Shown: positions 4,801 to 18,310 of the stretch, one piece after another
Numbering within the stretch: position 1 is the first letter of the stretch
How the letters are laid out: every line of letters begins with the position of its first letter
The notes under the pieces: model-generated
The model's input: the letters and a program-made list of their open reading frames with translations, nothing else
Told to the model about the DNA's origin: nothing
Databases searched by the model: none
From: an uncultured Kordia sp.
GTDB lineage: Bacteria; Bacteroidota; Bacteroidia; Flavobacteriales; Flavobacteriaceae
DNA length: 64,000 bases
Assembly (NCBI RefSeq): GCF_947496985.1
Contig: NZ_CANMEZ010000010.1
Coordinates: 62,001 to 126,000 of the forward strand
Direction: 5' to 3'
Program-made: the position numbers and the translations under genes

Positions 4801-5397
4801 AAACGCGGTGTACAAACTTCTGCGGTAACCTATCCAATTGTCGAAAGTGGTAAAGGACGTTTGCGGTTTATATGTTCGGCAGCACATACAAAAGACGATG
4901 TTGATAAAACATTAGCAGCATTAATAGCAGCTGAGCAACAAGTAGATTCAGAAGTAATGATGTTGTCCAATGAAGTATATGATACAGATATAACGAATGC
5001 TGATCTTGAAAATTGGACACATATGTTTATTAACTATATGAAAAAAGTATTAGCTGAAAGTTCAGCGCCAGTTCCAAATTTGGGAATTTCTATTCATATT
5101 AAAGACGCTACTCATCCAATTTCATTTTTAATAAAAGACAAAGAAGTTACTTTAAGTTTTCAAGATAATTTTGATGTTTCCTATTGTTCTTTGCTATTGA
5201 TGGATAAAGTAGCGGTTTCAGCATTGCAAACGTTTAATATTCAAGGATTATTGGATAGTATTTGTAAAGGAACCTGTGTTTTAAATGGACAAATAGAACC
5301 ATTTATCTGGTTTGTTGGGCGCATTGTAGATTATCAAAAAGAAGTACAAGAACTTTCAAGTTCTAAACATACAACATCAGAAGAAGCAATAGCGTAG
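1837..5397 (+). CDS. NRPS-like adenylation / carrier / alpha-oxoamine synthase fusion protein
   Basis: A 1186-residue multidomain enzyme. Residues about 15-495 are an amino-acid adenylation domain: the P-loop [11 protein letters not shown] is at 158-168, FDTSVME keeps the Asp expected for an alpha-amino-acid substrate, and [14 protein letters not shown] and a late PNDKLDRKK loop follow. Residues about 515-600 are a carrier domain with phosphopantetheine Ser558 in GLDSL. Residues about 665-1050 are a PLP-dependent alpha-oxoamine synthase of the KBL/AONS/serine palmitoyltransferase class, with Schiff-base Lys887 in TLSKALG. The last ~135 residues are a separate unidentified domain; a lipid-binding SCP2-like fold is only a guess. 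Inferred reaction: the tethered aminoacyl thioester undergoes decarboxylative condensation with a second amino acid to give an alpha-amino ketone. No thioesterase, condensation domain or partner enzyme sits next to it. Confidence 0.88.
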
Positions 5398-6022: not shown

Positions 6023-6180
6023 ATGAAGGCTCAATGTATGATTTCGTTCTGTGCTTAAACAACTAATTTAGTAAATCCAAACGGAATAGAAAACTCTTGT
6101 GGCTCTTGAACTTATTGAGATGAGGATTTTCGTAAATAAGAAAGTTCTTAGTTAATAATTCTATAAGGTGTTAGCAGTAG
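6023..6180 (-). repeat. Cassette-type intergenic element 1
   Basis: Spacer between the GNAT and nuclease-like genes. It holds TGTATGATTTCGTT and ACTAATTTAGTAAA, which recur with small changes in element 4 (TGTATAGTTTCGTT, ACTAAGTTAGTAAA). It ends AAGGTGTTAGCAGTAG, parallel to the ACCGTGTTGTA ends of elements 3 and 6. Read on the minus strand, it begins at the 3' end of the nuclease-like gene. Confidence 0.55.
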
Positions 6181-6183
6181 TAA

Positions 6184-6912
6184 TTATTTTACTCTATTCC
6201 ATTTCAAGCAGTTCATGTAAAACTTATTAATTACACCTTTATTTTTATCTGACAGCAAATCAATCCAATCTTCATATGATAAAACCTTGATGTTACATTT
6301 TTTAGCTCGATTGATTAACTCCATATCGACTGTTAATTCAGATAGTTTATATCGATTTGAAATTTGATGTATTATTTTATCCCTTTCTACTTGACTTTTG
6401 ATATCATGTTTATCAATCATTTTGCGTGGAGCCACAACAGTAAAAAAAGTTTGACAAGATTCATTTTTGACATTTTCAGCAATGCAAGCTAAGTTTCTAC
6501 TAGCTTGATTATAATTAAGTGCGTTCGTAGTTCTTTGACTTAAATTACTTTTCATTTTTGCTTCAATAATACCAAAGGTAGTCGCTTTTTTAGCTACTAT
6601 AATGTCTCCACGATTTTCATAATTAATTGTAAAATCACCCAAAGCTATATCAGTGTGTGTGTATCCTTCTTTATTTTTTTTAGTTTTTACAAATGGGCTT
6701 GAAATAAGTCCTTCGGATGACCAGTTTTTTACTTTACTAAAATCAATTAGTCCATCAATTTTTATTTTTTCCTTTATAGATTGATGCACTAATAATCTCG
6801 TCATCCAACCTTCATTAAATATTTCCGTAGGATTGACATTTGAAACGTTATTTTTAGTCTCACTTTCTATTGAATGCAATATTTGTTTGAAGAATTCTAC
6901 TATTTCTTTCAC
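6184..6912 (-). CDS. Hypothetical protein with PD-(D/E)xK nuclease-like core
   Basis: A 242-residue cytoplasmic protein I cannot name. Mid-protein, a Asp-rich strand (YTHTDIALGDF) is followed by RGDIIVAKKATTFGIIEAKMKS, in which the ExK of IIEAK fits the catalytic half of a PD-(D/E)xK nuclease fold; later segments look helical. That fits a restriction-type or repair endonuclease relative, but the family is not identified and activity is inference. The frame opens with GTG at 6912, because an in-frame TAG lies just upstream. The only in-frame ATG alternative is much further in. It may share a unit with the MarR/UbiA-like/ABM genes to its right. Confidence 0.6.
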   Translation of the reverse strand: MKEIVEFFKQILHSIESETKNNVSNVNPTEIFNEGWMTRLLVHQSIKEKIKIDGLIDFSKVKNWSSEGLISSPFVKTKKNKEGYTHTDIALGDFTINYENRGDIIVAKKATTFGIIEAKMKSNLSQRTTNALNYNQASRNLACIAENVKNESCQTFFTVVAPRKMIDKHDIKSQVERDKIIHQISNRYKLSELTVDMELINRAKKCNIKVLSYEDWIDLLSDKNKGVINKFYMNCLKWNRVK

Positions 6913-6960
6913 TTGATTCTATAGATTCATTATTAGTTTTTTCATTGAGATGTACATTTG

Positions 6961-7383
6961 TTATTCTCTAATTACGGTATAAAGTGAAGGTGTCGGTTTT
7001 AATCCATCAACAGGAACGATATTGGGTTGTTGCATCATTTTTTTAGTCGCTTCCATAAACGCTTTCGGACTTTCCCAAACTGCTACATTTATCAGTTCAA
7101 ATTTAGCATCGTCTTTTATTGATTGATGCAACTTTGTAGATATATAACCTGGTTGTGTTTTTAAAAAGTCTCTACACGCTTCCCAATATTTAATTGAAGC
7201 TTCTAATTTTCCTGCTGGCACTTCAAATGGATTTATAAGTACTGTGTGTTTTTTGTTCTCACTTGTCATTTTTTTCTCGTTTTTAGTTGTTGTTTTAGTT
7301 TTTTTCTCGTTGTTACACGATGTTATTCCTAAAAATAATAAGGTAATAAAAATTGCTTTTGTGATGTTTAAGGTTTGTTTCAT
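6961..7383 (-). CDS. Antibiotic biosynthesis monooxygenase (ABM) domain lipoprotein
   Basis: A 140-residue lipoprotein. The N-terminus is a signal peptide ending in the lipobox LGITSC, so Cys23 should carry lipid, followed by a Lys/Thr-rich linker. The rest (residues about 45-140) is a small ABM ferredoxin-like domain of the kind found in heme-degrading and quinone-modifying monooxygenases, with conserved PGYISTKLHQS and ...FELINVAVWES segments. Substrate unknown. It is last in a minus-strand operon after the MarR regulator and the UbiA-like membrane protein, 11 bp downstream of the latter. Confidence 0.8.
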   Translation of the reverse strand: MKQTLNITKAIFITLLFLGITSCNNEKKTKTTTKNEKKMTSENKKHTVLINPFEVPAGKLEASIKYWEACRDFLKTQPGYISTKLHQSIKDDAKFELINVAVWESPKAFMEATKKMMQQPNIVPVDGLKPTPSLYTVIRE

Positions 7384-7394
7384 ATTGTTTAATT

Positions 7395-8228
7395 TTAATT
7401 GGTAATACCTAAATAGCTAGCCCCTAAAAGTGCTATTGAACCGTCTATAAGTATATTATAATGAAAATCTTTTTTTGTTAATTTAGTTGATATGATTAAG
7501 AGTATTTGGATTAACACAGCTGAAAGAAATAATGGTATTGGTAAATAAGAGTTAGCGTAAATATTGATTAGTAAAGCGGTAATAATTAATAAAACTACAG
7601 CTAATATTTTTGCGTTTTTCACACCGATTACTTGCGGAATTGTTTTTTGTGTTGGCAAATCGTGTTTTAAATCTCTAATGTCAAAAGGAATTGCAATTGC
7701 CATAAAGTATAAATAGTGCGCGGGAATAAAATATAATAAAACCTGTGAGTTCAATACGTTTTCATTCATTATTGGAAACAAAACAATAATTGCTGTCCAA
7801 GTAAAAGCTATAGAATGTATTTTTAAATAGGGTAGTTCTCGTATATTTTTTTGTCCTAAACGAATTACATAAAAAAATGCGATACAGACTGCAACGATAA
7901 TTAAAGCTATAATTGTTATGCGTATTTCGTTGATGAGTTTTATAAAGTATAAAACAGATATCAATCCACTTAAAACGCTTAAATTTAAAATTAGTTTTTT
8001 ATGTCGACTAACCCATTTTAACCAAGGTGTTTTTGTTTCAAAACTTGCTTTAACCAATCGATGCGAGTTGTACACACAAAATGTTGCAAAAAAACCAAAA
8101 AAACCATATTCAATAATGTTTTCGATGCCAAACAGATTGGTAATTCCTGAAATAAGTACACCAGCCGAAGTAGCAATAACAACATTTAAGTAAATAATGT
8201 AGTTTAGTATTGTTTTAAAATAGTGCAT
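7395..8228 (-). CDS. UbiA-like integral membrane protein
   Basis: A 277-residue protein with about seven to nine hydrophobic helices. The segment FDIRDLKHDLPTQKTIPQVIG closely resembles the second Asp-rich prenyl-diphosphate loop of UbiA prenyltransferases (DxRDxxxD). The first loop is not NxxxD-like but CVYNSHRL, so substrate or catalytic capacity may differ. I use ATG 8228; a TTG at 8261 would add 11 residues but starts only 4 nt after the MarR stop. It lies in an operon between the MarR gene and the ABM lipoprotein gene. Together they suggest a regulated quinone or lipid-modification function, which is inference. Confidence 0.7.
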   Translation of the reverse strand: MHYFKTILNYIIYLNVVIATSAGVLISGITNLFGIENIIEYGFFGFFATFCVYNSHRLVKASFETKTPWLKWVSRHKKLILNLSVLSGLISVLYFIKLINEIRITIIALIIVAVCIAFFYVIRLGQKNIRELPYLKIHSIAFTWTAIIVLFPIMNENVLNSQVLLYFIPAHYLYFMAIAIPFDIRDLKHDLPTQKTIPQVIGVKNAKILAVVLLIITALLINIYANSYLPIPLFLSAVLIQILLIISTKLTKKDFHYNILIDGSIALLGASYLGITN

Positions 8229-8265
8229 TAAATTGGTATTGCTTGTGTTGGCGTGTATCAAAATC

Positions 8266-8697
8266 TTAACTAATGTTTTGCTTTATTTTATTAATGACAG
8301 ATAAGAATATGTCTATTTCACTTTTCGCTATATCTTTTGTAGCATTGTCTATAAAAATCTTTGCAACTTTATTTGCTTTTGTTACTTCGATTGTTCCTTT
8401 TTCTGTAATACAGATGAGTTTTAACCTTCGGTCTGTTTTAGATTGCTTTCTTTTTACAAATAGTTGTTTTTCAAGAATATCTACCATTCGTGTCGTTGCA
8501 GAGTTATCTTTCTTTGTAATAGTCGTAATTTCTTGCATCGAACGGTTGTTTTTTTCAAACAGGACGTTGAGTAACTCTAATTGTTCTGGTGTTATTTTTA
8601 ATCCATTCTCTTTTAAATGCCTTTTAAATTCTTTGAGAATAATTATTCTTGTTAATGCTATTTGATAAGTTGGGCTTTGCTCTCTAAATGAATTCAT
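8266..8697 (-). CDS. MarR family transcriptional regulator
   Basis: A 143-residue winged-helix repressor: the recognition region reads TITKKDNSATTRMVDILEKQL, followed by the wing KRKQSKTDRRLKLICITEKG typical of MarR. Family members respond to phenolic or oxidative ligands. I use ATG 8697 (MNSFREQS). A TTG start at 8730 would place the first codons across the inverted repeat 8709-8725 and upstream of the predicted transcript start. First gene of a minus-strand operon with the UbiA-like and ABM genes, so it probably controls itself and them. Confidence 0.88.
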   Translation of the reverse strand: MNSFREQSPTYQIALTRIIILKEFKRHLKENGLKITPEQLELLNVLFEKNNRSMQEITTITKKDNSATTRMVDILEKQLFVKRKQSKTDRRLKLICITEKGTIEVTKANKVAKIFIDNATKDIAKSEIDIFLSVINKIKQNIS

Positions 8698-8708
8698 ATT
8701 AATTTGAC

Positions 8709-8735
8709 TAATCAATGTTTGATTATGCAAATATA
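8709..8735 (-). promoter_or_regulatory. Promoter and probable MarR operator
   Basis: Perfect inverted repeat TAATCAA-TGT-TTGATTA at 8709-8725, 12 bp upstream of the MarR ATG. A -7 box (TATATTTG read on the minus strand, 8728-8735) sits directly behind it. The repeat would cover the transcript start, as expected for autorepression. Confidence 0.65.
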
Positions 8736-8825
8736 ATAAAAAATGATTAACTATTGTAAACAGACTATATATTTGGATTTGTTCTTACGTTATTTTTAAT
8801 AACTGATCATTCGAGTTTGTGGTTT

Positions 8826-8959
8826 ATCGGTAACGTGTTCGTGCATGGTTAGTTGCGGATTAAAAAACATCTACTTTTTTAAGTAATATGCATAATTAAA
8901 TAAGAAAACGGTGCAAGTTTGCACTTAAACTGCTATTGCTTTCATACTTTGTTACCTGC
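8826..8959 (-). repeat. Cassette-type intergenic element 2
   Basis: Spacer between the MarR operon and the NTF2/LysR pair. It is recognisably the same family as element 5: both run from a TAACG/CAACG end through CGTGYATG, a GCGGATT or ACGGATT segment and GCTATTGCTT to a TGTTA end. The last bases GTTACCTGC (8951-8959) pair with GCAGGCAAC at 10443-10451 on the far side of the NTF2/LysR genes. Contains a short hairpin GTGCAA-GT-TTGCAC at 8911-8924. No coding capacity. Confidence 0.6.
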
Positions 8960-9012
8960 TGGCTTTTTCTTGTCAAATATTCAGAAAAATCAAATTTACA
9001 GTAGTTATGAGT

Positions 9013-9402
9013 TTAGTCTATTACTTTTTCCAAATGCCATATTTTGGAAACTATCTGCCATCCATCCTCTCCATTAACAAACCCTAGATGGTCTACAAAG
9101 ACATTATTATGTGCTCTAATTCTTATTTTTACTGTTGCACAAGAAGTTGATAACCAATCAATCAATAAAATTTTTGCTTCAGGTTCTTGTCCTTTGCTGT
9201 GAGGAGACACTCTTCCTCCAACATCTTTACTAAAACTATCGATTGGTTCAACGAAAACTTTTCCTTCATCGACATCAAATAGACTAGAACTTTTGTGAAA
9301 TATTTTATTGAGCATTTCAGTATCACAATAATAAAGGGCATCGAAATAAGTTTGTACAGCACTTAGTAAATCGGTAGTTAAGTTCATTTCTTGTTTTTGC
9401 AT
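9013..9402 (-). CDS. NTF2-like (SnoaL / lumazine-binding type) family protein
   Basis: A 129-residue cone-fold protein with the usual N-terminal helix (DLLSAVQTYFDALYYCD), an intermediate His/Ser segment and C-terminal strands ending DGWQIVSKIWHLE, all characteristic of the NTF2-like superfamily subgroup annotated as putative lumazine-binding. Such proteins bind or isomerise small ligands; no substrate can be assigned. Divergent from the LysR gene, which likely controls it from the shared 135-bp region. Confidence 0.75.
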   Translation of the reverse strand: MQKQEMNLTTDLLSAVQTYFDALYYCDTEMLNKIFHKSSSLFDVDEGKVFVEPIDSFSKDVGGRVSPHSKGQEPEAKILLIDWLSTSCATVKIRIRAHNNVFVDHLGFVNGEDGWQIVSKIWHLEKVID

Positions 9403-9523
9403 ATTTTTTTAAATTTATTTTCCGTCAAAATTAGTTTGAGTATTGAACTATTTTAAATTTGGAAATTGAGCTTTTTTAATTTTTAGCTGAAATTTTATCA
9501 GTTAAGCTATAATGACAAATCAC

Positions 9524-9531
9524 TAACTTTG
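9524..9531 (+). promoter_or_regulatory. -7 promoter box of the LysR gene
   Basis: TAACTTTG matches TAnnTTTG exactly and ends 6 nt before the LysR ATG at 9538, leaving little or no 5' leader. No clear TTG box stands at the right distance. Confidence 0.5.
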
Positions 9532-9537
9532 TCACTT

Positions 9538-10428
9538 ATGGAAATCAAATATTTTAGGCTCATAAAAGCAATCGCTGAAGAAGGTAGTATTGCTAATTCT
9601 GCTGAAAAATTGTTTTTAACGCAATCGGCTTTGAGTCACCAATTAAGAGAACTGGAAGAAAGGTTAGGATTTAAGGTGTTTATCAGAACTCGAAATAAAT
9701 GGGAATTTACAGATGAAGGTGTTGAACTATATAAATTAGGGAATACAATTCTTGAAAGTATAGAAAAAGGTTTTCAAAATATTGAGCAGTTACGAACTGG
9801 CTCTGTTGGTACAATCAAAGTAAGTACAGAATGTTACAGTTTTTATCAAGGCCTTTCTGCTTTTATACAAAAAATGGGGCTTTTATATCCCGATATTAAT
9901 GTTGATTTAATTCTTGAAGCAACACACCAACCAATATCAAAAATTTTGTCAAACGACATTGATATTGCAATAACTACTTCAAAGCCAGAACATGAAATTT
10001 TATCAAGCATTGAAATCTATGAAGACGAGATTTTTGGAATTATTCATAAAGAAAATACGTTGAATAAATTAGATTTTTTAGATGCAAATGATTTTTCTAA
10101 TATACATTTGATAATTCATTCTTTTCCTTTGGAAACGGTCTCGGTATATGACCAATTTTTAAAACCGAATAAAATTACTCCACTCAAGATTTCCGCTATT
10201 CCTCTTACTGAAGTCGCCTTAGAAATGGTCAATGCTAATATGGGCATAATGTGTATGCCTAAATGGGCATTAAAATCTTTTAAATTGCCTGATGATTTGA
10301 TTTTTAAACAAATTGGTAGGAGTGGATTAAAAAGGAAACATTATTTAGTTTTCCGTAAATCCGATAAATCAAAGAAGTATGTTAATGATTTTATTTCAAA
10401 CTTTAAAGATGATTTTTCAAAGGCTTAA
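9538..10428 (+). CDS. LysR family transcriptional regulator
   Basis: A 296-residue LysR-type regulator. Residues 1-60 form the winged HTH (MEIKYFRLIKAIAEEGS, then LTQSALSHQLRELEERLGFKVF). A linker helix and a periplasmic-binding-protein-like effector domain follow (about 90-290). ATG 9538 is preferred over an upstream TTG at 9529, which lies in the promoter box. It is divergent from the NTF2-like gene, the classical LysR target arrangement. The pair shares one flanking inverted repeat (8951-8959 / 10443-10451), suggesting they move as one unit. Confidence 0.9.
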   Translation: MEIKYFRLIKAIAEEGSIANSAEKLFLTQSALSHQLRELEERLGFKVFIRTRNKWEFTDEGVELYKLGNTILESIEKGFQNIEQLRTGSVGTIKVSTECYSFYQGLSAFIQKMGLLYPDINVDLILEATHQPISKILSNDIDIAITTSKPEHEILSSIEIYEDEIFGIIHKENTLNKLDFLDANDFSNIHLIIHSFPLETVSVYDQFLKPNKITPLKISAIPLTEVALEMVNANMGIMCMPKWALKSFKLPDDLIFKQIGRSGLKRKHYLVFRKSDKSKKYVNDFISNFKDDFSKA

Positions 10429-10442
10429 GTGATTTTTAACTT

Positions 10443-10500
10443 GCAGGCAACGGTTTAGCACTTACTAGCTATGTTTTATAGACCGTGTTGTAGTGCGTTA
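10443..10500 (-). repeat. Cassette-type intergenic element 3 (58 bp, shortest copy)
   Basis: A compact copy of the spacer family. Left end GCAGGCAAC pairs with the left side of the LysR/NTF2 unit. Right end GTTGTAGTGCGTTA (10487-10500) includes the SMI1 stop codon and pairs with 11034-11047. Internally AACGGTTTA and TAGACCGTGTT form an imperfect hairpin whose right arm has two extra bases. The stretch TAGCTATGTTTTATA-ACCGTGTTGTA is shared with element 6. Confidence 0.7.
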
Positions 10501-11028
10501 TTCTTCTTTTTGTTCTTCGTGTTCAATAGCTAATTCCTCAAGCATATTTTCAAAATTCGAGTATTGAAATTCAAATTGATCATAAACTTCGTGGTCCCAA
10601 AGAACAATTGGGTAATCATTGTTTTCACATTTGGCTGTTGTATCAAAACATAGTAAACCCCAATCACTCCAATTGGCAAAAGGAATTCGACCGGTTTCGA
10701 TTGGATATCCATCAAAAATCATTTCCATTAGTTTAGCTCTCCAAGTATTGATTGGATGCGAGCAAAAAGAACATTCCGCTATGTACAATTCATAAAAATG
10801 TTTGATCTTCAGGAATTTCTTATAACTATCAGGAAGTCTATGTCCAATTTCATTTTCCAATTCAGATAATTCTGAATCCGTTACTGTGCTCTGGATTGGT
10901 AGCCAGTTTTTCCATTCCTTATTGTTGTCAGCACTACTGTCCAACATTTCGGTTTCAACATCGCCAGGTTTTGAGTTTATTTCAAGAGAAACAATCTCAT
11001 TCAGATATTTATTTATAATTTCTTCCAT
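10498..11028 (-). CDS. SMI1/KNR4 family protein
   Basis: A 176-residue protein with the SMI1/KNR4 core: VTDSELSELENEIGHRLPDSYKKFL, then a GRIPFANWSDWGLLCFDT segment and a C-terminal acidic helix. In bacteria this superfamily includes many immunity proteins of contact-dependent or polymorphic toxins, but orphan copies also occur. No toxin gene is next to it. Its stop codon lies inside a 14-nt repeat that is mirrored just upstream of the start, so the gene is bracketed as a unit. Confidence 0.85.
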   Translation of the reverse strand: MEEIINKYLNEIVSLEINSKPGDVETEMLDSSADNNKEWKNWLPIQSTVTDSELSELENEIGHRLPDSYKKFLKIKHFYELYIAECSFCSHPINTWRAKLMEMIFDGYPIETGRIPFANWSDWGLLCFDTTAKCENNDYPIVLWDHEVYDQFEFQYSNFENMLEELAIEHEEQKEE

Positions 11029-11033
11029 TTTTC

Positions 11034-11170
11034 TAATGCACTACAACGGTTCATGTATAGTTTCGTTACTGAAACACTAAGTTAGTAAAAAGAACTGGAT
11101 CATTTTTCAGCCGTTATGATTTTCTGATAGGAAAATCAGCAAGTAATGAACAATACATTTTGTTATACAA
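11034..11170 (-). repeat. Cassette-type intergenic element 4
   Basis: Left end TAATGCACTACAAC (11034-11047) is the inverted partner, 13 of 14 positions, of 10487-10500 across the SMI1 gene. The body contains the TGTATAGTTTCGTT and ACTAAGTTAGTAAA blocks shared with element 1, then a local hairpin around TTTTCTGATAGGAAAA. The right end GTTATACAA (11162-11170) overlaps the SDR stop codon and is a weak partner of 13524-13532. Confidence 0.6.
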
Positions 11171-12017
11171 AGGCTTTTTTCTTTAATTGAGTTTTCACAT
11201 CATTTATTTCGGAGATAGAGGCAATAGAAAATTGAATTTCAGTATTATAATCTTCCATTTTATTCTTATTTAATTTTTGAAATTCTTGCATAGTAGGACG
11301 AATTACTAGTTCGTTAATATCTACATCCGCAGGTTGATCAATAGCGTAGGCCACAGCTTTTGCAATTGAAATTGCAGGAATAGCATCTTTGTATACTTGC
11401 TGTATAAATTGTGAAGTTGCCTCATCTGAACTTCCTAATCGTAGTTCAGACTCTATTAAACCAGGTGTTAATATTGTTGTTCTAATATCCTTACCAACTT
11501 CTTGTCTCAATCCTTCACTTATTGCACGTACTGCATATTTAGTACCACTATAGACCGCTCCGCCTGGGCTTATTTTTAATCCAGCGACAGATGCTAAATT
11601 GATAAAGTGACCTGATTTTTGTTTTTCAAATTCCGGTAAAGCTGCTGCAATACCGTATAACACACCTTTTATATTAACATCAATCATACTGTCCCATTCG
11701 TCAATTTTTAGAGCACTTAATGGTGCTAAAGGCATAATACCAGTATTATTAACCATAACATCAATTTTGCCAAAAGTGGCAATGGCTTTTTTCACCAAAG
11801 CTTTTACATCATCAACACTGGTAACATCTGTTCTTAAAATTTCAACAGTTCCTCCATTTTTTTTAATTTCTGAAGCAACTTTTTCTAATTTGTCTATTCT
11901 ACGAGCACCTAATACTACTTTTGCCCCTTTTTCTGCCAAGTAACGAGCTGTAGCTTCTCCTAATCCACTACTTCCTCCTGTAATGACTACTACTTTGTCT
12001 TCTATATTATTTTTCAT
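11163..12017 (-). CDS. SDR family NAD(P)-dependent oxidoreductase
   Basis: A 284-residue classical short-chain dehydrogenase/reductase. It has the cofactor loop TGGSSGLGEATA near the N-terminus, NNTGIMP in the place of NNAG, the catalytic Ser in LASVAG and the YSGTKYA Tyr-x-x-x-Lys pair. Basic residues after the second strand (GARRIDK) favour NADP(H). Substrate unknown. It overlaps the upstream SDR gene by 4 bp (ATGA), indicating translational coupling, and both face away from the HxlR regulator. Confidence 0.88.
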   Translation of the reverse strand: MKNNIEDKVVVITGGSSGLGEATARYLAEKGAKVVLGARRIDKLEKVASEIKKNGGTVEILRTDVTSVDDVKALVKKAIATFGKIDVMVNNTGIMPLAPLSALKIDEWDSMIDVNIKGVLYGIAAALPEFEKQKSGHFINLASVAGLKISPGGAVYSGTKYAVRAISEGLRQEVGKDIRTTILTPGLIESELRLGSSDEATSQFIQQVYKDAIPAISIAKAVAYAIDQPADVDINELVIRPTMQEFQKLNKNKMEDYNTEIQFSIASISEINDVKTQLKKKAFV

Positions 12018-12883
12018 TTTATTTTTGTTTCTAATAAATAATCCATTTTGTACGCTTGCAAGGAACCATCTTGTATTGGTTGTGTTAATTCATTAACCTT
12101 ATCTGCTCCTAGTGGTAATCCTACAGTAGTTCTGGTTGGTCTAGAACCTTGAGGCATTTCAGCAAGCTTCAAATAAGCCTCAGCAACTAAATTAGGCTGT
12201 GGAAAATCTTCTGATTGTAGTAAGGTAGTAACACCTTCCATCATTCCATTCAAAATTGATTGTTGTTCTGAATACTCAGCTAACACTTCTGTTCTAGCTT
12301 CTGGAGTAAATGAACCGGCCAAGTTTGTTGCAAATGGTCCTGGTTCAACTAAAATAGTTTCTACACCTGTAGGAGCTAATTCGTATTTTAAACTTTGAGT
12401 GTAAGCTTCAACAGCAACTTTAGAAGCACAATAGGTAGCTGCAAAAGGTGCAAATACTCTACCATATGCAGATGTTGTATTAATGATTAGTCCTTTTCCT
12501 GCTTTACGCATAACTGGTAATACTGCTTGAGAGGTTCTAATAATACCATAGTAGTTTACGTTCATTAAGTCATTAGCTTGCTCTATACTAAAAGCCTCTG
12601 CAACTCCCATATGCATAATACCTGCATTGTTTATTAACACATCTATTGTACCTTCTTCTTTAATTATATTGTCCATTGCTTTTTTAACGGATTCATCTTT
12701 AGCAACATCCATATCTACAACTTTTACGTTAGATGAATAATTTTCTAATTCTTGTTTTTTTTCAGAATTGCTACCTTCAGTATTTCTCATTGTTGCATAA
12801 ACCTTGTATCCGTTATCTGCAAATAGTTTTGCTGAAAGGTATCCAAATCCGTTACTGCTTCCTGTGATAATTACATTTTTCAT
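12014..12883 (-). CDS. SDR family oxidoreductase
   Basis: A 289-residue short-chain dehydrogenase with GSSNGFGYLSAK cofactor loop, NNAGIMHMG, and the YCASKVA catalytic Tyr/Lys motif. ATG 12883 is chosen because the longer frame opening at 12925 would extend into the predicted promoter (12927-12934). It is the first gene of a two-gene operon. Its N-terminal sequence and CxSK active site place it with the SDR group that includes 3-oxoacyl and retinol-type reductases. HxlR regulation of such oxidoreductase pairs, in response to aldehydes or quinones, is common. Confidence 0.87.
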   Translation of the reverse strand: MKNVIITGSSNGFGYLSAKLFADNGYKVYATMRNTEGSNSEKKQELENYSSNVKVVDMDVAKDESVKKAMDNIIKEEGTIDVLINNAGIMHMGVAEAFSIEQANDLMNVNYYGIIRTSQAVLPVMRKAGKGLIINTTSAYGRVFAPFAATYCASKVAVEAYTQSLKYELAPTGVETILVEPGPFATNLAGSFTPEARTEVLAEYSEQQSILNGMMEGVTTLLQSEDFPQPNLVAEAYLKLAEMPQGSRPTRTTVGLPLGADKVNELTQPIQDGSLQAYKMDYLLETKIK

Positions 12884-12926
12884 TTTTTCTTGTTTTATAC
12901 GCTGTTTATTACTTTTAATTTGCAAG

Positions 12927-13007
12927 CAAAAATATGTAAATCACTTTTATTATACAAGTGAAAATTAATTTCATTTTGCAAGTAAAAAAATAAAAATTGT
13001 ACCTTTG
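12927..13007. promoter_or_regulatory. Divergent promoters and probable HxlR operators
   Basis: Minus-strand promoter: TATTTTTG (12927-12934) with TTG 20 nt behind it (12955-12957). Plus-strand promoter: TTG 12976-12978, 21-nt spacer, TACCTTTG 13000-13007. Between them lie several CAAG copies (TTGCAAGC, TACAAGTG, TTGCAAGT) and a CACTT...AAGTG inverted repeat around 12942-12960. This would be a plausible single regulator site covering both -33 boxes. Confidence 0.65.
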
Positions 13008-13034
13008 CAATCAATTGATAAAACATTAGATATA

Positions 13035-13460
13035 ATGGATCATAAATTCAGATGTAATTGCCCTATAACTGTTGCGCTTGATGTTATTGGCGATAAATGG
13101 GCATTAGTTATTGTTAAACAAATATTGACTGAAGGAAAAAAAACTTTCAAAGATTTTATTGAAAGCGAAGAATCTATTGCTACTAACATATTGTCTTCAA
13201 GATTAAAAATGCTTGAAGAATTTAAGATTATCACAAAAGATAAACTGCCAGATAATAAGAAAACAAATATTTATACTTTAACCGAAAAAGGTATAGACCT
13301 AATGCCAATAATAGCAGAATTATCTATTTGGAGCGATAAACACCTTAGAGAATTTCATCCAGAATTATATTCTGGTGAAGTGCTTGAAATTGTAAAAAGT
13401 AATAAAGAAGATTTTATTAATAAAACAATTGAAGACTATAAATTAAAAAATTGGAAATAG
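13035..13460 (+). CDS. HxlR family winged-helix transcriptional regulator
   Basis: A 141-residue HxlR-type regulator: CNCPITVALDVIGDKWALVIVKQIL is the family hallmark, with a redox-capable Cys pair before the helix. It continues with the recognition region ESIATNILSSRLKMLEEF and wing YTLTEKG. ATG 13035 fits the promoter (transcript start about 13014) better than an upstream TTG at 13005, which lies in the -7 box. Divergent from the two-SDR operon, which it probably controls. Confidence 0.9.
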   Translation: MDHKFRCNCPITVALDVIGDKWALVIVKQILTEGKKTFKDFIESEESIATNILSSRLKMLEEFKIITKDKLPDNKKTNIYTLTEKGIDLMPIIAELSIWSDKHLREFHPELYSGEVLEIVKSNKEDFINKTIEDYKLKNWK

Positions 13461-13523
13461 AGCGAAATTTATATAAAATCCGAATAGTTAATTTAATTCT
13501 AGGCGGTGAAATTTTTCAGCTTG

Positions 13524-13658
13524 TTGCCCAACGATGTCGTGTATGAGCAGTAACGGATTTATAGCTACTAACTTTAGGTAAGCAATATATTAAAATAAAC
13601 GCAATAGCGGTTCAAGTGCAAACTTGAACCGCTATTGCTTATAAACAATGTTAGCCGT
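13524..13658 (-). repeat. Cassette-type intergenic element 5
   Basis: Spacer between the HxlR and TfoX genes, in the same family as element 2 along its whole length. The left end TTGCCCAAC (13524-13532) is a weak partner of 11162-11170. The right end GTTAGCCGT (13650-13658) pairs at 7 of 9 positions with ACGGTCAAC at 15338-15346 across the TfoX/VOC/AraC group. Confidence 0.6.
13601..13638. terminator. 17-bp perfect hairpin inside element 5
   Basis: GCAATAGCGGTTCAAGT, loop GCAA, and its exact reverse complement. The loop is a GNRA tetraloop. It lies between convergent genes and could terminate both, but a degraded version in element 2 shows it is part of the repeat family. Confidence 0.6.
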
Positions 13659-13666
13659 TCGTTGTT

Positions 13667-14019
13667 TTACTTCTTCTTTCCTTTCTTTGATGATTTTGCC
13701 ATTTTATTGTAGTCAAGGCATAGGTTTAAATAAAATTCAAAGTCATTTCTGTTTTTAAATCCGAATGGATTTATGTAACAATAGCCTTTATATTCTTTAC
13801 CTTTCATGAACATCGTCTCATAACCATCTCTTTCAGAAAGTTCTTCCTGTCGGCTTGGGTCAAAACGCAACATTAAGTTTTCACCACTTATACAAACGCA
13901 GGTCTTTCCATTTATTATAAAGTTTAATACGGCAAACATTTTTTTTCCTCGATTTCAATGTCTGGAATTTCCGCAAGATATTCTCTAACTCTGTCAACAA
14001 GATTTGTGTCATAAGCCAT
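13667..14019 (-). pseudogene. TfoX/Sxy N-terminal domain protein, frameshifted at an A8 run
   Basis: Read from ATG 14019 the product starts MAYDTNLVDRVREYLAEI, the standard TfoX-N opening. At a run of eight A (13939-13946, minus strand) the frame meets a stop within four codons (CLPY-stop). The remaining domain (MFAVLNFIINGKTC...FDPSRQEELSERDGYE...GYCYINP) continues in the neighbouring frame to 13667. One extra A restores a single ~117-residue TfoX-N protein with a Lys-rich tail. So it is a pseudogene, a sequencing slip, or a gene rescued by polymerase slippage on the A-run. It starts 9 bp after the VOC gene and is probably co-transcribed with it. TfoX-N proteins are linked to competence or DNA uptake in some bacteria, but small orphans have no known role. 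Confidence 0.75.
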
Positions 14020-14028
14020 AAATCAAAA

Positions 14029-14403
14029 TCATTTACGTGAATGAAGCCCTACTGTATTACCTTCTGTATCTATGAAAATCGAAATAAAACCGAATTCACC
14101 AATGCTCATTTTAGGTTGTACCATTTTGCCACCAGCCATTTCAATTCTTTGTTCTTCTGCAATGTTGTCTTCGGTTTCAAAATAGACAACTGTGTTATTG
14201 CTACTTGGAACAAAATCGGTTTTTTCCACTAAAGCACCAGAAATATTTGAACTTTCGTGGTTAAACGGGAAAAATGATTGCTTTCCCCATTCAATAGGTG
14301 CATCTGATAGCTTTAAATTGAAAACTGTTTCGTAGAATTTTTTTGCTCTGTCTAAGTTTGCTACGTTTAGGTCAAACCAACCAACTGGATTTGTATTCGT
14401 CAT
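14029..14403 (-). CDS. VOC family protein (glyoxalase/bleomycin-resistance fold)
   Basis: A 124-residue vicinal-oxygen-chelate protein made of one pair of beta-alpha-beta-beta-beta modules: GWFDLNVANLDRAKKFYETVF at the start, then FETEDNIAEEQ and GEFGFISIFIDTEGNTVGLHS at the end. Family members bind metal and isomerise, open or sequester small molecules; this subgroup is of unknown substrate. It lies in an operon with the frameshifted TfoX gene, downstream of the AraC regulator. Confidence 0.87.
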   Translation of the reverse strand: MTNTNPVGWFDLNVANLDRAKKFYETVFNLKLSDAPIEWGKQSFFPFNHESSNISGALVEKTDFVPSSNNTVVYFETEDNIAEEQRIEMAGGKMVQPKMSIGEFGFISIFIDTEGNTVGLHSRK

Positions 14404-14487
14404 TTTTTTATGATTTTAAGTTTTTGCATTATTGCTATGCAAAGATAAAATCAGCTCAAATGACAAAATTGTAAAAATGGGACAAGG

Positions 14488-15306
14488 CTACTCCTTATCA
14501 AAAATCAAAGACATTTTTAAGTCGTCTCCAAAAAATTCCTTTGGTGTCAAGCCTGTGAATTCCTTGAATTCTTTTATAAAATGCGCTTGGTCAAAATATT
14601 CGTTCTCATATGCCAAGTCGGTTAGACTTGTGATTTCTTCGTTCAGTAACACTTTCAAGGTTGATTGAATTCTAATTGTTTTTGCGAGTTGTTTTGGGCT
14701 TAGTCCTATAATTGCAGAAAATTTACGTGCTAATTGTCTTCTACTTACATTATTAGTACTTGAAAATTCATTTACTGAAAATTGTCCATTAGCACTAAAA
14801 ATTGTTTCAACCGTTGATTTCACAATATCATCAACCTTATTTTTATCAGATAATTCTTTGAAAAGAAAGTTTTCGATGATTTGTATTCTTTCAGATGTAG
14901 AGTTTGCATTTAAGATTTGATTGCCAAGTTTGACTCCTTCTTCTCCGAATAATTTGTTCAATGGTATCGCCTTGTTTTCCAATTCTTTGATTGGAATTGA
15001 TGTAAAGGGTAAAAAACCATTTGGTTTGAATTGTACAACAAAACTACCAGTTACTCCAATGGGTTCAATCACGTAGGGCTTTGTTAGTTGGCCAATTAGA
15101 AAGCATTTTGGTAAAATTATTATTTCGCCATTTTGTGAATGATGTTTGTAGGTGTCACCATAATGAAAAATCAATTTCACTGTTCCGTCAGGCACGATTG
15201 TGTTTTTTAGAGGTATATTTTCTTTTTCACCATCTAATGTCCAGTATCGTTTGACAAACTCTGTGAGTTCGGTATTTGGCTCATATGTTTTTGGATTTAA
15301 GTCCAT
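14488..15306 (-). CDS. AraC family transcriptional regulator with DUF6597-type sensor
   Basis: A 272-residue regulator. Residues 1-150 form the N-terminal sensor seen in many flavobacterial AraC proteins (YEPNTELTEFVKRYWTLDGE, then NTIVPDGTVKLIFHYGD). The last 100 residues are two HTH motifs (VSRRQLARKFSAIIGLSPKQL and FDQAHFIKEFKEFTGLTPKEFF). ATG 15306 is preferred; the frame can extend to 15345 but would run into element 6. It lies 84 bp upstream of the VOC gene on the same strand. Confidence 0.87.
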   Translation of the reverse strand: MDLNPKTYEPNTELTEFVKRYWTLDGEKENIPLKNTIVPDGTVKLIFHYGDTYKHHSQNGEIIILPKCFLIGQLTKPYVIEPIGVTGSFVVQFKPNGFLPFTSIPIKELENKAIPLNKLFGEEGVKLGNQILNANSTSERIQIIENFLFKELSDKNKVDDIVKSTVETIFSANGQFSVNEFSSTNNVSRRQLARKFSAIIGLSPKQLAKTIRIQSTLKVLLNEEITSLTDLAYENEYFDQAHFIKEFKEFTGLTPKEFFGDDLKMSLIFDKE

Positions 15307-15337
15307 TGTCAATTTTTGTGAGGTGTCTTTTACAATG

Positions 15338-15543
15338 ACGGTCAACGGTCTTGTGTATGAAACGTAGCGTGCAGAAAGACACTAACTTTTCGGATTAACA
15401 CAGAGACAAATTTTTATATTTTATTTTTAATTTTTCTCTTTTTAAAAGCCAAATTAAAAATTTGGCGGACTTTATAAATATACACAAACCTTTCGATTAA
15501 GCACTTATTAGCTATGTTTTATATACCGTGTTGTACGCAGTTA
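15338..15543 (-). repeat. Cassette-type intergenic element 6
   Basis: Spacer between AraC and the HEPN gene. The left end ACGGTCAAC (15338-15346) pairs with 13650-13658. The right part TAGCTATGTTTTATATACCGTGTTGTA repeats element 3 almost base for base. Its last 14 bases GTTGTACGCAGTTA (15530-15543) contain the HEPN stop codon and pair with 16562-16575. Also contains a short A/T-rich inverted repeat around AAATTAAAAATTT near 15450. No coding capacity. Confidence 0.65.
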
Positions 15544-16548
15544 TTTATTTATCAACAGCCAATTTGTAATTGACATTTTGCTCAAAAGAATTACTTCCAT
15601 TTGGTTAATGAATTCTTCATCTTTTTCTTCTTGAGGAAGTTCAGTCCACAAATTTTCCGTTTTGAATTTCATTCCTGTATGTACAATCTTTGAACGAAGA
15701 CCATACAATGCGTTAAATTTCTTTTTGTTGTTTGGATTATCTCCAATATACTTTAACAGATAATCTCTATATTTTTTAGAAACTTTATATTGTAATTGAC
15801 CACATTCATTACATTTTTCAGCTTTGAAATCTCTATTCTCATAATTAACCATCGTTTCGATTGAGGTAAAAGCAGAAATTACAGATAAAGTCTTTTTGTA
15901 CTGTCTTAATTCCATTGCAGAAACAGTATGTGATATTGCTGTGTCTAAAACATTTTTAACTTCATTATCCAAGTTATAATATGAATCTAAACCTAGGAAG
16001 ATGTTGTTCGGGAATGAAATTTCTTTATCACGATAATAATCATAATTCGGATTTATTTGATAATATTCCATAAACGGAATAAATTCTACAGGTTCATATT
16101 TTAATTCTATATCCGTAAAATTTTCAATTTTCAATTGTTCAGGTAGTTCTGGCCAATGGAACATAGTCATACTCCATTTAGAAACCCAAGTATTAGCTTC
16201 TTCTCCTGCATTATCTTTTAAAATTGGCATTCCCCAATTTCCAGTCAAATCATAATATCTAAAAAACATATGATTTGTGAATAGAGTTAATAAATTTAAT
16301 ATTTCATCTTGTTTCGATAGAGTAGAAGCAGTAAGCGTTCGTAAATCTTTTAATCCATCGTCTTTTTGTGGTTCAATTACCTCGTGTTCCTCAATAATAT
16401 ATTCTAAAACAACAGGATAATGTTCTTGTAGTTCCGATTTTGGCATTCCGATTAAGTCAGCTGGATAAATTTGGAACTTTTTTGGATAGAGAAAGTACTT
16501 TTTAAGAGGGACTTTTGTGAATATAATTGTCTTATGAAATCTGTTCAT
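15541..16548 (-). CDS. Uncharacterised protein with Apea-like HEPN domain
   Basis: A 335-residue protein. Near the C-terminus a Cys pair (CNECGQ, possibly half of a zinc site) is followed by YRDYLLKYIG and then ALYGLRSKIVHTG. Here R285-x4-H290 is the R-x(4-6)-H ribonuclease motif of HEPN domains, in the context typical of Apea-like HEPN. The first 200 residues are rich in aromatic residues and not recognised. HEPN proteins act in abortive-infection, toxin-antitoxin and RNA-cleaving defence systems; a role here is inference, and no antitoxin partner (such as MNT) is adjacent. The gene is bracketed by its own 14-nt inverted pair, which includes its stop codon. Confidence 0.7.
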   Translation of the reverse strand: MNRFHKTIIFTKVPLKKYFLYPKKFQIYPADLIGMPKSELQEHYPVVLEYIIEEHEVIEPQKDDGLKDLRTLTASTLSKQDEILNLLTLFTNHMFFRYYDLTGNWGMPILKDNAGEEANTWVSKWSMTMFHWPELPEQLKIENFTDIELKYEPVEFIPFMEYYQINPNYDYYRDKEISFPNNIFLGLDSYYNLDNEVKNVLDTAISHTVSAMELRQYKKTLSVISAFTSIETMVNYENRDFKAEKCNECGQLQYKVSKKYRDYLLKYIGDNPNNKKKFNALYGLRSKIVHTGMKFKTENLWTELPQEEKDEEFINQMEVILLSKMSITNWLLINK

Positions 16549-16561
16549 TCTTGGTTTTCGG

Positions 16562-16618
16562 TAATTGCGTACAACGTATATATTCCTGTTTTTATATTGA
16601 TTTTGGTAAATAACAGGA
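16562..16618 (-). repeat. Cassette-type element 7, right end of the array
   Basis: TAATTGCGTACAAC (16562-16575) is the partner, 13 of 14 positions, of 15530-15543 across the HEPN gene, and is followed by ATATATTCC. An inverted repeat TTCCTGTT...AACAGGAA closes at 16618. No further unit or integrase lies to the right before smpB. Confidence 0.55.
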
Positions 16619-16730
16619 ACTACTTGTATAATAACTTCCTTTTATTTTTTCTAAATGTAAAACAAAGATTATACATATGCAATGAGATTTTCCGTAAAGC
16701 GAGAAGTGTAATTCGTGAATCAGTGTTAGG

Positions 16731-16818
16731 AATAGATTCCTGCCTACGCAGTAATGACAGTATTGTTATAAAGATAATGAGATCCTTAATCAAGTTCAGG
16801 ATGACGCAAAAAGTGTGA
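16731..16818. repeat. Dispersed intergenic repeat candidate
   Basis: ATTCCTGCCTACGCAGTAATGAC followed by GATCCTTAATCAAGTTCAGGATGACGC resembles the degenerate dispersed repeats (ATTCCTGCCT..GCAGGAATGAC type) known from many bacterial genomes. Not coding; occupies most of the 320-bp gap between the HEPN gene and smpB. Confidence 0.4.
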
Positions 16819-16868
16819 TTAAAAAATCATGTTGAAATAACATAATTTACTTATTAAATAATAGGAAT

Positions 16869-17327
16869 CTAACGGAAGTTCTTTTTGATACGATCCAAAT
16901 TACGCTTATTATCACGATCTTTCATCGTTTCACGCTTGTCATGAATCTTTTTACCTTTTGCAAGTGCAATAGATAATTTAGCCAATCCTTTTTCATTTAA
17001 AAATAAACGCAACGGAACAATCGTTAATCCAGCGTTTTTGATGCTTTTTTCTAAGCTTCGTAATTCTTTTTTGTTCAATAACAACTTTCGTGTACTACGC
17101 GGTTGGTGATTGTAATGCGTTCCAAAAGCATATTCTTCAATATACATATTCACTACAAAAAGTTCGCCTTGCTCATTAAATTCACAGAAACTCTCGGCAA
17201 TGGAAGCTTTGCTCATTCGAATAGATTTAATCTCAGTTCCGGTCAAGACAATTCCTGCCGTGTACTTGTCTAAGATTTCATATTGAAAGCGCGCCTTCTT
17301 ATTTTGTATGTTGATATTTTTTTGCAT
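16869..17327 (-). CDS. smpB: SsrA-binding protein SmpB
   Basis: A 152-residue RNA-binding protein that delivers tmRNA to stalled ribosomes for trans-translation. Signatures: [16 protein letters not shown] at the start, [14 protein letters not shown], then [14 protein letters not shown] and the basic tail [14 protein letters not shown]. Length and basic C-terminus are typical. ATG 17327. The gene appears monocistronic; its neighbours face it or diverge. Confidence 0.96.
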
Positions 17328-17452
17328 CGGTTGACAAAAGTACTAACATTTCTTGAAATGACAAGAAAGTGAGTGTTTATGATGAATTAAAAAGATTTTT
17401 TTTGTTTTGAAATACTATGACTTTTGTCATTTTTCTCCCAGAAATACTGCGA

Positions 17453-17460
17453 TACATTTG
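17453..17460 (+). promoter_or_regulatory. -7 promoter box upstream of the OmpW gene
   Basis: TACATTTG matches TAnnTTTG, 25 bp before ATG 17486. The nearest TTG (17424-17426) is a little too far (26 nt). Confidence 0.45.
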
Positions 17461-17485
17461 TATTATAATTTTAAATATAGACGTA

Positions 17486-18139
17486 ATGAAAAAAGCAGTT
17501 TTAGGTGTTTTTTTAATGTTAGGAATGTTTCAACTAACAGCACAAGAAGATGTACAAGATGTAAAACAAGATACAGACAAAAAATGGCAGGTTCGCGCAC
17601 GTTTTATCGCTGTAACTCCAAGTGAAAGCGCTTCTATTCAGGCAATTGGTGGAGATGTTTCTATTTCTACATCGTATGTGCCAGAATTAGATTTCACATA
17701 TTTCTTTACAGAAAATTGGGCGGCAGAATTAATTTTAGCAACCACAAATCATGATGTTGAAGCAATCAACACTGCGGCAGGGAATATAAACTTAGGTGAT
17801 GTTTGGTTATTGCCGCCGACATTAACTGTTCAGTATCATTTTCCGATAGGAGATTTCAAACCATATATAGGAACAGGATTGAACTATACTATTTTTTATG
17901 GCGCTGATGAAGGACCAATTGCAGATGATGTAAGTTATGATAACAGTATTGGATTTGCCTTTCAAGCAGGATTAGATTATGCATTAAATGACACTTGGTT
18001 TTTAAACCTTGATGTTAAAAAAATACTACTTCAAACTGATGCTACTGTAAATGCTAACACAGCGTTGGGCGCGACTGTAGGAGCAGATGTAGATATTAAT
18101 CCTTTGGTGATAGGATTTGGTATTGGAATGAAGTTTTAG
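17486..18139 (+). CDS. OmpW family outer-membrane porin
   Basis: A 217-residue 8-stranded beta-barrel protein. A signal peptide (MKKAVLGVFLMLGMFQLTAQ, cleaved before EDVQD) precedes alternating hydrophobic strands; WQVRARFIAVTPSESAS is the OmpW opening, with LPPTLTVQYHFP in mid-protein and a C-terminal aromatic residue (GMKF) for BAM recognition. OmpW forms channels for hydrophobic solutes. ATG 17486 is used, because the upstream extension precedes the promoter box and signal peptide. Confidence 0.9.
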   Translation: MKKAVLGVFLMLGMFQLTAQEDVQDVKQDTDKKWQVRARFIAVTPSESASIQAIGGDVSISTSYVPELDFTYFFTENWAAELILATTNHDVEAINTAAGNINLGDVWLLPPTLTVQYHFPIGDFKPYIGTGLNYTIFYGADEGPIADDVSYDNSIGFAFQAGLDYALNDTWFLNLDVKKILLQTDATVNANTALGATVGADVDINPLVIGFGIGMKF

Positions 18140-18164
18140 TAGTTGTTTTAAGTTATGGGAATGA

Positions 18165-18197
18165 AAAACGTCACTTTGAAAAGAGTGGCGTTTTTTT
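18165..18197 (+). terminator. Rho-independent terminator of the OmpW gene
   Basis: AAAACGTCACTTT and AGAGTGGCGTTTT pair with G-T wobbles, followed by seven T. Confidence 0.7.
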
Positions 18198-18310
18198 AGT
18201 TTTAGATCACTAAGAAAATGTGTCTTATTTAAATAAATACGACTTATGATTGTTGCTTTTTTTTTAAAATGTTATGTTCTTAGATTCATGTTTAACTAAA
18301 AATTTATATC

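Follow-up and report, generated by a model that had tools for sequence, protein, structure and literature searches.

The core of an integron attC site is the heptanucleotide GTTRRRY. Published accounts add that attC sites comprise R boxes, an unpaired central spacer, an L stem and a variable loop, with a folded bottom strand and mostly a G after AAC (PMC2727003), that an additional domain defines the integron integrase IntI and is the marker required by IntegronFinder (PMC9668308), and that in an 'integron-like' subgroup of tyrosine recombinases this insertion is not fully conserved (PMC8138268). We analysed a 64-kb stretch of DNA from an uncultured Kordia sp. (the window; G000:C10:62001-126000, part of a 5.48-Mb genome), in which an array of small gene units separated by related spacers is flanked by a large adenylation/KAPA-like gene (1837-5397) and smpB (16869-17327). 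This array appears to be an integrase-less, partly decayed satellite, headed by a solo leader, of an integron-like gene-capture system of Flavobacteriaceae that uses a recombinase other than IntI, a reading to which we give a probability of about 0.88. No published description of this system was found in open-licence PubMed Central, preprints being outside the scope of the search.

In this system, a cassette consists of one or a few genes with a hairpin recombination site at the 3′ end of the gene; read on the gene strand, it starts with GTTRNNNNNNA and ends with the complementary core CNNNNNNYAAC, followed by the site. A tyrosine recombinase of about 350-430 amino acids, encoded elsewhere at the head of another array, would recognize the folded anti-gene (bottom) single strand of this site and catalyse exchange within the GTT/AAC triplet, and the excised cassette would be inserted at an attI-like leader or at another site. 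A solo leader stands at the start of several arrays in the Kordia genome, and the enzyme would act on these in trans.

The sites form one family that is present in many Flavobacteriaceae. A 52-nt direct repeat, D1 (85% identity, 5 kb apart), tops the repeat list of the region, and a pattern derived from it has three matches in the Kordia genome and is present in five of 40 relatives (this genome included); the reversed pattern has none. An exact 26-nt site pattern was found in at least 109 stretches of genome_contigs. By what we take to be their taxonomy, the 80 titles among the matches listed are Flavobacteriales, mostly Flavobacteriaceae, with one exception, Roseivirga; the exact site motif has no match in viral_contigs. 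Beyond the constant arm the sequence differs from unit to unit, beginning with GTTR, in which the 26-nt pattern itself ends and the D1-derived pattern does not. A cassette of about 438 bp with the core GTTATGTACAG is repeated in G024, a genome of another genus, in 12 near-identical copies, sometimes in tandem, in two distant arrays (L136, L138, L141), one of which is headed by an intact recombinase.

The boundaries of the cassettes are marked by paired cores. In other genomes, the 14-nt core of a unit has a reverse-complement mate with at least 12 matches in 61 of 76 units (those of 113 motif places with at least 2.6 kb downstream), whereas the cores of other units reach at least 12/14 in the same DNA in 2.2% of trials, so that the end cores covary with the unit that they enclose. 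Both strands of the 109 stretches (787 kb) were scanned for 10-nt GTTRNNNNNN cores that pair exactly at a distance of 180-3000 nt. This gave 627 pairs, every pair entering the count once from each strand; 567 of them combine a G at position 11 of one end with an A at position 11 of the other, versus 12 of the 146 found in reversed DNA. Because of this asymmetry we describe the core as GTTRNNNNNN plus a mismatch that gives the orientation. This position-11 rule defined the units in the counts of window pairs, folding, pair identity, open reading frames (ORFs), cores and recombinase loci, and was not used for the 627-pair scan. The 372 unit cores comprise 152 different 10-mers, of which only GTTR is kept (units were defined to begin with it), and GTTRRRY fits 19 of the 372. 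The initial annotation of the window had described a core longer than, and different from, GTTRRRY and had asked whether end cores covary with the enclosed unit and whether the spacer family recurs across Flavobacteriaceae; the results favour it on all three points.

Cassettes that are at least 85% identical allow the exchange point to be located. Among 89 such pairs, many of them from the single genome G024, 72 agree in the flank next to their own arm but differ in the opposite one, 12 agree on both sides (two of these being the same DNA twice, L070 and L132), four differ on both sides and one shows the opposite pattern. At the cassette start, identity is 0.47 at position -4 and 1.00 from AAC onward through +21 (n = 34, different neighbours); at the cassette end it stops one base past the cassette's own AAC, with 0.36 at +1 (n = 74, different neighbours). 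Identity breaks at AAC, which places the point of exchange in AAC(G)/(C)GTT, where integrons also have theirs. These results also bear on a view of the spacers as miniature inverted-repeat transposable elements (MITEs), or scattered transposon ends, without cassette function. Such elements would likewise be repeated, dispersed and hairpin-forming, but a transposon needs constant ends, whereas the cores vary between cassettes yet are complementary within each, and the unit that moves is a gene plus one arm, with its break at AAC; we consider this view very improbable.

Of the 328 units that have an ORF of at least 60 amino acids, 318 have their longest one on the gene strand, and 44 of the 372 units have no such ORF (ORF and core counts exclude duplicate loci). 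The genes fit tightly in the cassettes, with medians of 26 nt to the ORF start and 15 nt from the stop to the end of the core. For 120 proteins taken from the 318 gene-strand ORFs (ten of the 130 listed, namely the longest and those at the end of the list, were left off), Pfam gave 89 families, none in more than three of the 120, and PADLOC 145 models, none in more than two. A 'defence island' was considered as an explanation and not adopted, given this very mixed content.

The sites share a fold, which was analysed on an alignment of 57 of 65 references drawn from 88 short-class sites (about 118 nt). A stem of 16 bp, together with the invariant AAC/GTT, pairs in 97.6% of the cells, compared with 31-50% when one side is slid by 1-3 columns. 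The stem covaries: its covariation score is 0.478, versus 0.135 in shuffled alignments, and 176 cells are changed on both sides, versus 54.7 (0 of 500 shuffles reach either value). An asymmetric unpaired stretch lies between core and stem, and a G follows AAC in all 57 rows. The two strands are not equivalent, since the stems hold 140 G·T wobbles on the anti-gene strand and two on the gene strand, and the anti-gene strand gives the better fold in 148 of 171 sites (171 unique of 172; 165 were sorted into three length classes), including both main length classes (81/89 and 58/72). Judged by sequence, the sites thus follow the attC type of plan, with R boxes, an unpaired spacer, an L stem, a loop and a folded bottom strand, and the choice of strand would apparently be set by a code of wobbles rather than by extra-helical bases. 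Intergenic, folded hairpins with compensatory changes would also be compatible with RNA elements, namely terminators or regulators of small operons with the cores as by-products. The wobbles, however, are on the wrong strand for sense transcripts, a search of three array loci (60 kb) against Rfam gave nothing at E up to 0.01, and paired cores lying hundreds of bases apart would be left unexplained, which makes an RNA origin hardly credible.

For the array of the window itself, the sites were scored with R1, a covariance model built from 57 sites at other loci and from no window site. The features are as follows.

1837-5397, plus strand: left flank, a large fused gene with what we take to be adenylation and KAPA-like domains, which adjoins smpB directly in three array-free genomes.
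6033-6169, plus strand (anti-gene strand): possible degenerate cassette site, with a core-like GTTAGCAGTAG next to it at 6170.
6184-8697, minus strand: decayed unit, without an exact end pair.
6184-6912, minus strand: ORF of the decayed unit, no Pfam family.
6961-7383, minus strand: ABM gene of the decayed unit.
7395-8225, minus strand: UbiA-like gene of the decayed unit, Pfam score under the cut-off.
8266-8697, minus strand: MarR gene of the decayed unit.
8822-8963, plus strand (which is the anti-gene strand): cassette site, R1 34.0 bits, E = 1.3e-4.
8951-10451, genes on both strands: NTF2+LysR unit (Pfam), with a weak end pair GTTACCTGC/GCAGGCAAC, an NTF2/lumazine-binding-like gene at 9013-9402 (minus) and a LysR regulator at 9538-10428 (plus).
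10439-10499, plus strand: truncated, 60-nt cassette site of the SMI1 cassette, R1 18.7 bits, E = 0.19, also a motif match, with the arm GCACTTACTAGCTATGTTTTATAGACCGT retained.
10487-11047, minus strand: SMI1/KNR4 cassette unit, exact core pair GTTGTAGTGCG...TGCACTACAAC, Pfam SMI1_KNR4 at 1.8e-11.
11035-11174, plus strand: cassette site, R1 66.5 bits, E = 2.2e-11.
11163-13530, genes on both strands: SDR/HxlR unit (Pfam), end pair decayed and no exact pair, with short-chain dehydrogenases (SDR) at 11163-12017 and 12014-12883 (minus) and an HxlR regulator at 13035-13460 (plus).
13520-13663, plus strand: cassette site, R1 53.5 bits, E = 1.1e-8.
13650-15346, minus strand: unit with TfoX-N, glyoxalase/VOC and AraC genes (Pfam), weak end pair.
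15334-15542, plus strand: cassette site of the long class (spacer of about 182 nt), owned by the next unit, R1 63.6 bits, E = 9e-11.
15530-16575, minus strand: cassette unit of a 335-aa protein, exact core pair GTTGTACGCAG...TTGCGTACAAC.
16576-16660, minus strand: attI-like leader fused to the first cassette; it contains TTCCTGTT/AACAGGAA blocks in inverted orientation.
16869-17327, minus strand: smpB, the conserved right flank (SmpB, 1.9e-55), present in 11 of 11 same-genus genomes, this one included.

Seven related spacers had been proposed in this array, and R1 recovers five of them (11035-11174, 15334-15542, 13520-13663, 8822-8963 and 10439-10499). The sixth is not established by the model: with filters off, 6033-6134 scores 12.7 bits (E = 0.4), which is chance level and is exceeded by a match outside the array that is itself at chance level (29880-29962, 14.0 bits), although by eye 6033..6169 has the arm ATGTATGATTTCGTT...CAACTAATTTAG in common with sites of the family. 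In the filters-off scan of 1-30000, 15334-15542 splits into two weaker matches. The seventh, which follows 16575, is not a cassette site and looks instead like the leader found at the start of arrays elsewhere in the genus. The end pairs of the SMI1 unit (10487-10500/11034-11047) and of the unit that had been labelled HEPN (15530-15543/16562-16575) hold as proposed, each with 13 of 14 positions matching, that is, 10 nt exact followed by a G/A mismatch at position 11; these are the only two exact-pair units by the position-11 rule within the 64 kb. Those of NTF2+LysR (8951-8959/10443-10451, 8/9 by eye) and of TfoX-VOC-AraC (13650-13658/15338-15346, 7/9 by eye) are in place but weak. The HEPN label itself was not confirmed, as Pfam gives no family for the 335-aa protein at E up to 0.001; a homologue is present in two of 249 genomes of the family, this one included. 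It should also be noted that the loop parts of two sites (13596-13643 and 8909-8945) have an inverted repeat in common (GCAATAGCGGTTCAAGTTTGCACTTG...), one of them being a near-perfect local hairpin.

The absence of a visible integrase, noted in the initial annotation, is true of the surroundings of the array, with no recombinase remnant found near the leader in 15500-18500, but not of the genome, which encodes one on contig C12. There, an intact ORF of 428 aa (L134, 14870-16156) specifies a tyrosine recombinase with R, K, H, R, H and Y, and cassettes lie behind it up to the contig end. This genome has 33 model matches over eight contigs and an intact recombinase of the family at one array only. 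We gathered 27 recombinase loci, chosen partly by recombinase matches and partly by the site motif (L017, L027, L032, L045, L072, L089, L103), the recombinase of L162-L171 and L027 being placed by the best tblastn match and not by its full frame. Co-directional cassettes lie downstream at 20 of them, the nearest at 31-136 bp in 13. A plasmid of a rainbow-trout Chryseobacterium (L227, NZ_CP041688.1, 9962-20093) carries a recombinase of the family with five model sites behind it (E = 0.0025 or better), and the platform therefore also travels on plasmids.

The catalytic R, H, R, H and Y are present in all 21 members of the recombinase family, and the K column holds K in 20 of them (R in L132). 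The stretch from KDR to HTLRH has 61-62 residues in 21/21 members, compared with 103 in 9/9 IntIs, and the columns of the 32-residue insertion of IntI1 hold one residue in every member and 32 in each of the nine IntIs. In an Xer-rooted tree of 36 proteins, the 21 members form one group (95/94) that stands beside IntI and is separate from both IntI (100/99) and the same-family Xer proteins (100/99); long outgroup branches and uneven composition were flagged by the program for this tree. TIGR02249 matches the family below its cut-off, and two of its best partial matches (G007, G024) are on contigs with site motifs nearby, while NF040815 (XerA-like, 'tyrosine recombinase/integron integrase') is matched over its cut-off by two members with listed scores. 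The proteins of the genus have, by eye, a double N-terminal module. The best PDB profile match of this module is the HARP domain of SMARCAL1 (4o66, E = 0.0016, 39 positions), suggestive only, and the Pfam HARP family matches one of 20 members (E = 0.049); from this we infer that the HARP-like N-terminus might anneal DNA.

Sites and recombinase occur together. Among 41 Flavobacteriaceae, 27 have both, one has sites only, three have the recombinase only and ten have neither (Fisher 2.6e-6, kinship ignored); among 395 Bacteroidota in the wide sense the corresponding numbers are 68, 37, 48 and 242 (3e-19, likewise). The recombinase threshold, E up to 1e-68, was placed by eye in the gap that separates these scores from those of Xer proteins. 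True IntI is present in 105 of the 395 genomes. Of the 28 genomes that have both enzymes, 17 contain sites, as do 51 of the 88 that have this recombinase but no IntI, nine of the 77 in which IntI occurs alone and 28 of the 202 that lack both, so that the frequency of sites is 68/116 with the recombinase and 37/279 without it and is unaffected by IntI. The sites thus go with this recombinase and not with IntI; the residual 12-14% without it may be weak matches or lost recombinases. In three genomes (G064, G076, G092; family code f38) true IntI and this recombinase are both present, and in G076 two listed sites are on the recombinase contig (C33), with IntI on C10.

These results leave little room for an ordinary IntI integron with its integrase elsewhere, in which case the window would be a plain cluster of attC sites lacking an integrase (CALIN). 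In favour of an IntI integron, the plan of the sites and the AACG at the exchange point match those of attC, as given in PMC2727003, and both the position of the recombinase beside IntI in the Xer-rooted tree and its match to TIGR02249 below the cut-off recall the integron integrase. However, the TIGR02249 search gave no IntI over the cut-off in 40 genomes, and none was found in the 41 genomes of the family among the 395 searched, the Kordia genome being included both times. The IntI insertion is absent from 21/21 members, GTTRRRY fits few units, and the sites do not track IntI (9/77 with IntI only, 28/202 with neither). An IntI integron is therefore distinctly unlikely.

Within the genus, arrays start with a palindromic leader, one common gene-strand form of which is TTTAGTTATAGTAGAAATAACAGGAATTCCTGTTATACATAC joined to GTTR. 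The leader pattern is found in 11 of 11 same-genus genomes (1-10 matches each, some places being counted on both strands) and in none of 29 other relatives, and the reversed control gives none. Thirty of the 57 leader places listed were analysed (L205 and L206 being second-strand copies of L196 and L188). With the exception of L185, each of them appears by eye to run into a cassette core; among the 15 that end directly in AAC, seven have a mate of 10 or 11 out of 11 within the short flanks searched. The leader sits between the recombinase and the first cassette and is also present at solo arrays; that of the platform on C12 is a palindrome with one mismatch in other letters (ATATACTGAATTCGGTATAT). 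C-terminal recombinase remnants lie beside six leaders, L187, L188, L190, L202 (which is in the Kordia genome), L203 and L195 (E = 0.005, marginal). Solo leaders that keep such remnants are thus probably decayed platforms, which suggests that the satellites are, in part, platforms that have lost their recombinase; solo-leader arrays, we infer, would be served in trans by the distant enzyme.

The locus of the window differs from species to species. No array lies between the same flanks in three same-genus genomes (loci L219, L222 and L223; genomes G010, G008 and G002), where about 50-100 bp separate the left gene from smpB; the left gene is also missing at smpB in G004 and G006, and G005 has a single other gene between the flanks. 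In G007 the locus holds sites, cassettes different from those of the window and a leader that is recognisable; G009 likewise has sites and different cassettes there, with a leader that by eye is diverged, G001 has one site and a diverged leader, and G003 a leader with no clear site. G007 and the Kordia jejudonensis locus L070 have the same recombinase and, in the parts compared, the same cassettes. Different cassettes occupy the same locus in L214 and L216, with a leader homologous to that of the window in L214 and, by eye, more diverged ones in L216 and L217. The left-flank gene (1837-5397) is absent beside smpB in L215 and L218. Seven window genes (GNAT, the ORF at 6184-6912, UbiA-like, MarR, SMI1, the first SDR and the 335-aa protein) are unmatched in the loci of the relatives at 1e-8. 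On the present sampling of the genus, this array is therefore confined to the one species or lineage.

Solo leaders with recombinase remnants and decayed cores in the window might also indicate that the system, although real, is dead throughout the genus and that its leaders and arrays are fossils. This is unlikely, given the intact 428-aa ORF with a full catalytic set in this very genome, the different cassettes that sister species carry at the same locus and, in another genus, the 12 near-identical cassette copies of G024 in two arrays, one with an intact recombinase. As for the array of the window itself, it may no longer exchange freely, because most of its cores are decayed. Our starting proposal, that flavobacteria have a distinct system of mobile cassettes or the fossil of one, is supported by the spacer family, the cores, the relatives and the recombinase. 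The genes are not in the same place in all close relatives, a tyrosine recombinase does co-occur with the spacers and is located at array heads, and the search for empty sites yielded the three array-free loci, but no pair of loci differing by a single cassette.

Several points weigh against our reading. The window array is partly decayed, with an exact pair in two of about six units and one truncated site, and the array-free genomes also lack the leader, so that no gain or loss of a single cassette is demonstrated. In the stem, 11 pairs have changed at both of their positions, a count no better than that of shuffled alignments (9.3; 62 of 500 reach it). Five of the 27 recombinase loci have no array (four at contig ends, and L171 with none in 7.8 kb), and at two of the 27 the array is divergent. 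A model match is present in 37 of 279 recombinase-free genomes and none at the threshold in 48 of 116 that have the recombinase; related sites and genomes make these counts non-independent, and what ties the recombinase to the sites is position and co-occurrence. The whole case is drawn from sequence, and the working is integron-like as far as sequence tells.

Outside the array, the window has two DUF805b RNA motifs (Rfam RF02914; 30575-30607 and 33024-33056, plus strand) and two small cysteine-rich peptides (22305-22547 and 22872-23102, plus strand) with similar KKK...L.LKK starts and a Gly-Gly motif, which we take to resemble precursors of ribosomally synthesized and post-translationally modified peptides (RiPPs) of the lanthipeptide kind.

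In a broader view, we lean towards a second integron lineage, in which a clade of non-IntI recombinases without the domain held to be essential, equipped with a HARP-like annealing module, would capture genes through single strands, with its own folded sites and several solo-attI arrays, and would serve as a gene-capture platform of Flavobacteriaceae. We do not file it as an integron, because the IntI-specific domain is absent and the core is unlike GTTRRRY; it is best regarded as a novel form of the integron kind, possibly a separate lineage. If this is true, gene capture of the integron type is independent of the IntI insertion, and since IntegronFinder requires that insertion, a large pool of cassettes in marine Bacteroidota may have gone unnoticed. 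The system could also explain why small accessory genes are patchy in these genomes. Set beside integrons, it would be a natural case for studying how tyrosine recombinases come to act on folded single strands of DNA and how one strand is selected.

Compared with known systems, the recombinase is like XerA, XerC and XerD in its catalytic core and, for two members with listed scores, in its match to NF040815, but it differs from Xer in forming a separate group (95/94), in its extra N-terminal domain and in adjoining arrays (co-directional at 20 of 27 loci). For the 'integron-like' subgroup of tyrosine recombinases, the accessible part of PMC8138268 describes no cassette system, site or flavobacterial array. 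The array of the window resembles a CALIN in that no recombinase was found beside it, whereas it starts with an attI-like leader and its sites are not canonical attC sites. The closest parallel is the integron: in both, a tyrosine recombinase heads a co-directional array, the site is at the 3′ end of the gene and exchange would take place inside GTT, and the sites are like attC in their R box, unpaired spacer, L stem and variable loop, in the favoured bottom strand and in the G after AAC. Unlike in integrons, however, the recombinase is without the IntI insertion and has a putatively HARP-like N-terminus, the heptanucleotide GTTRRRY is replaced by an R box of about 10-11 bp in which a G·T is fixed at position 11, the L stem is about 16 bp, and a genome has several solo-leader arrays.

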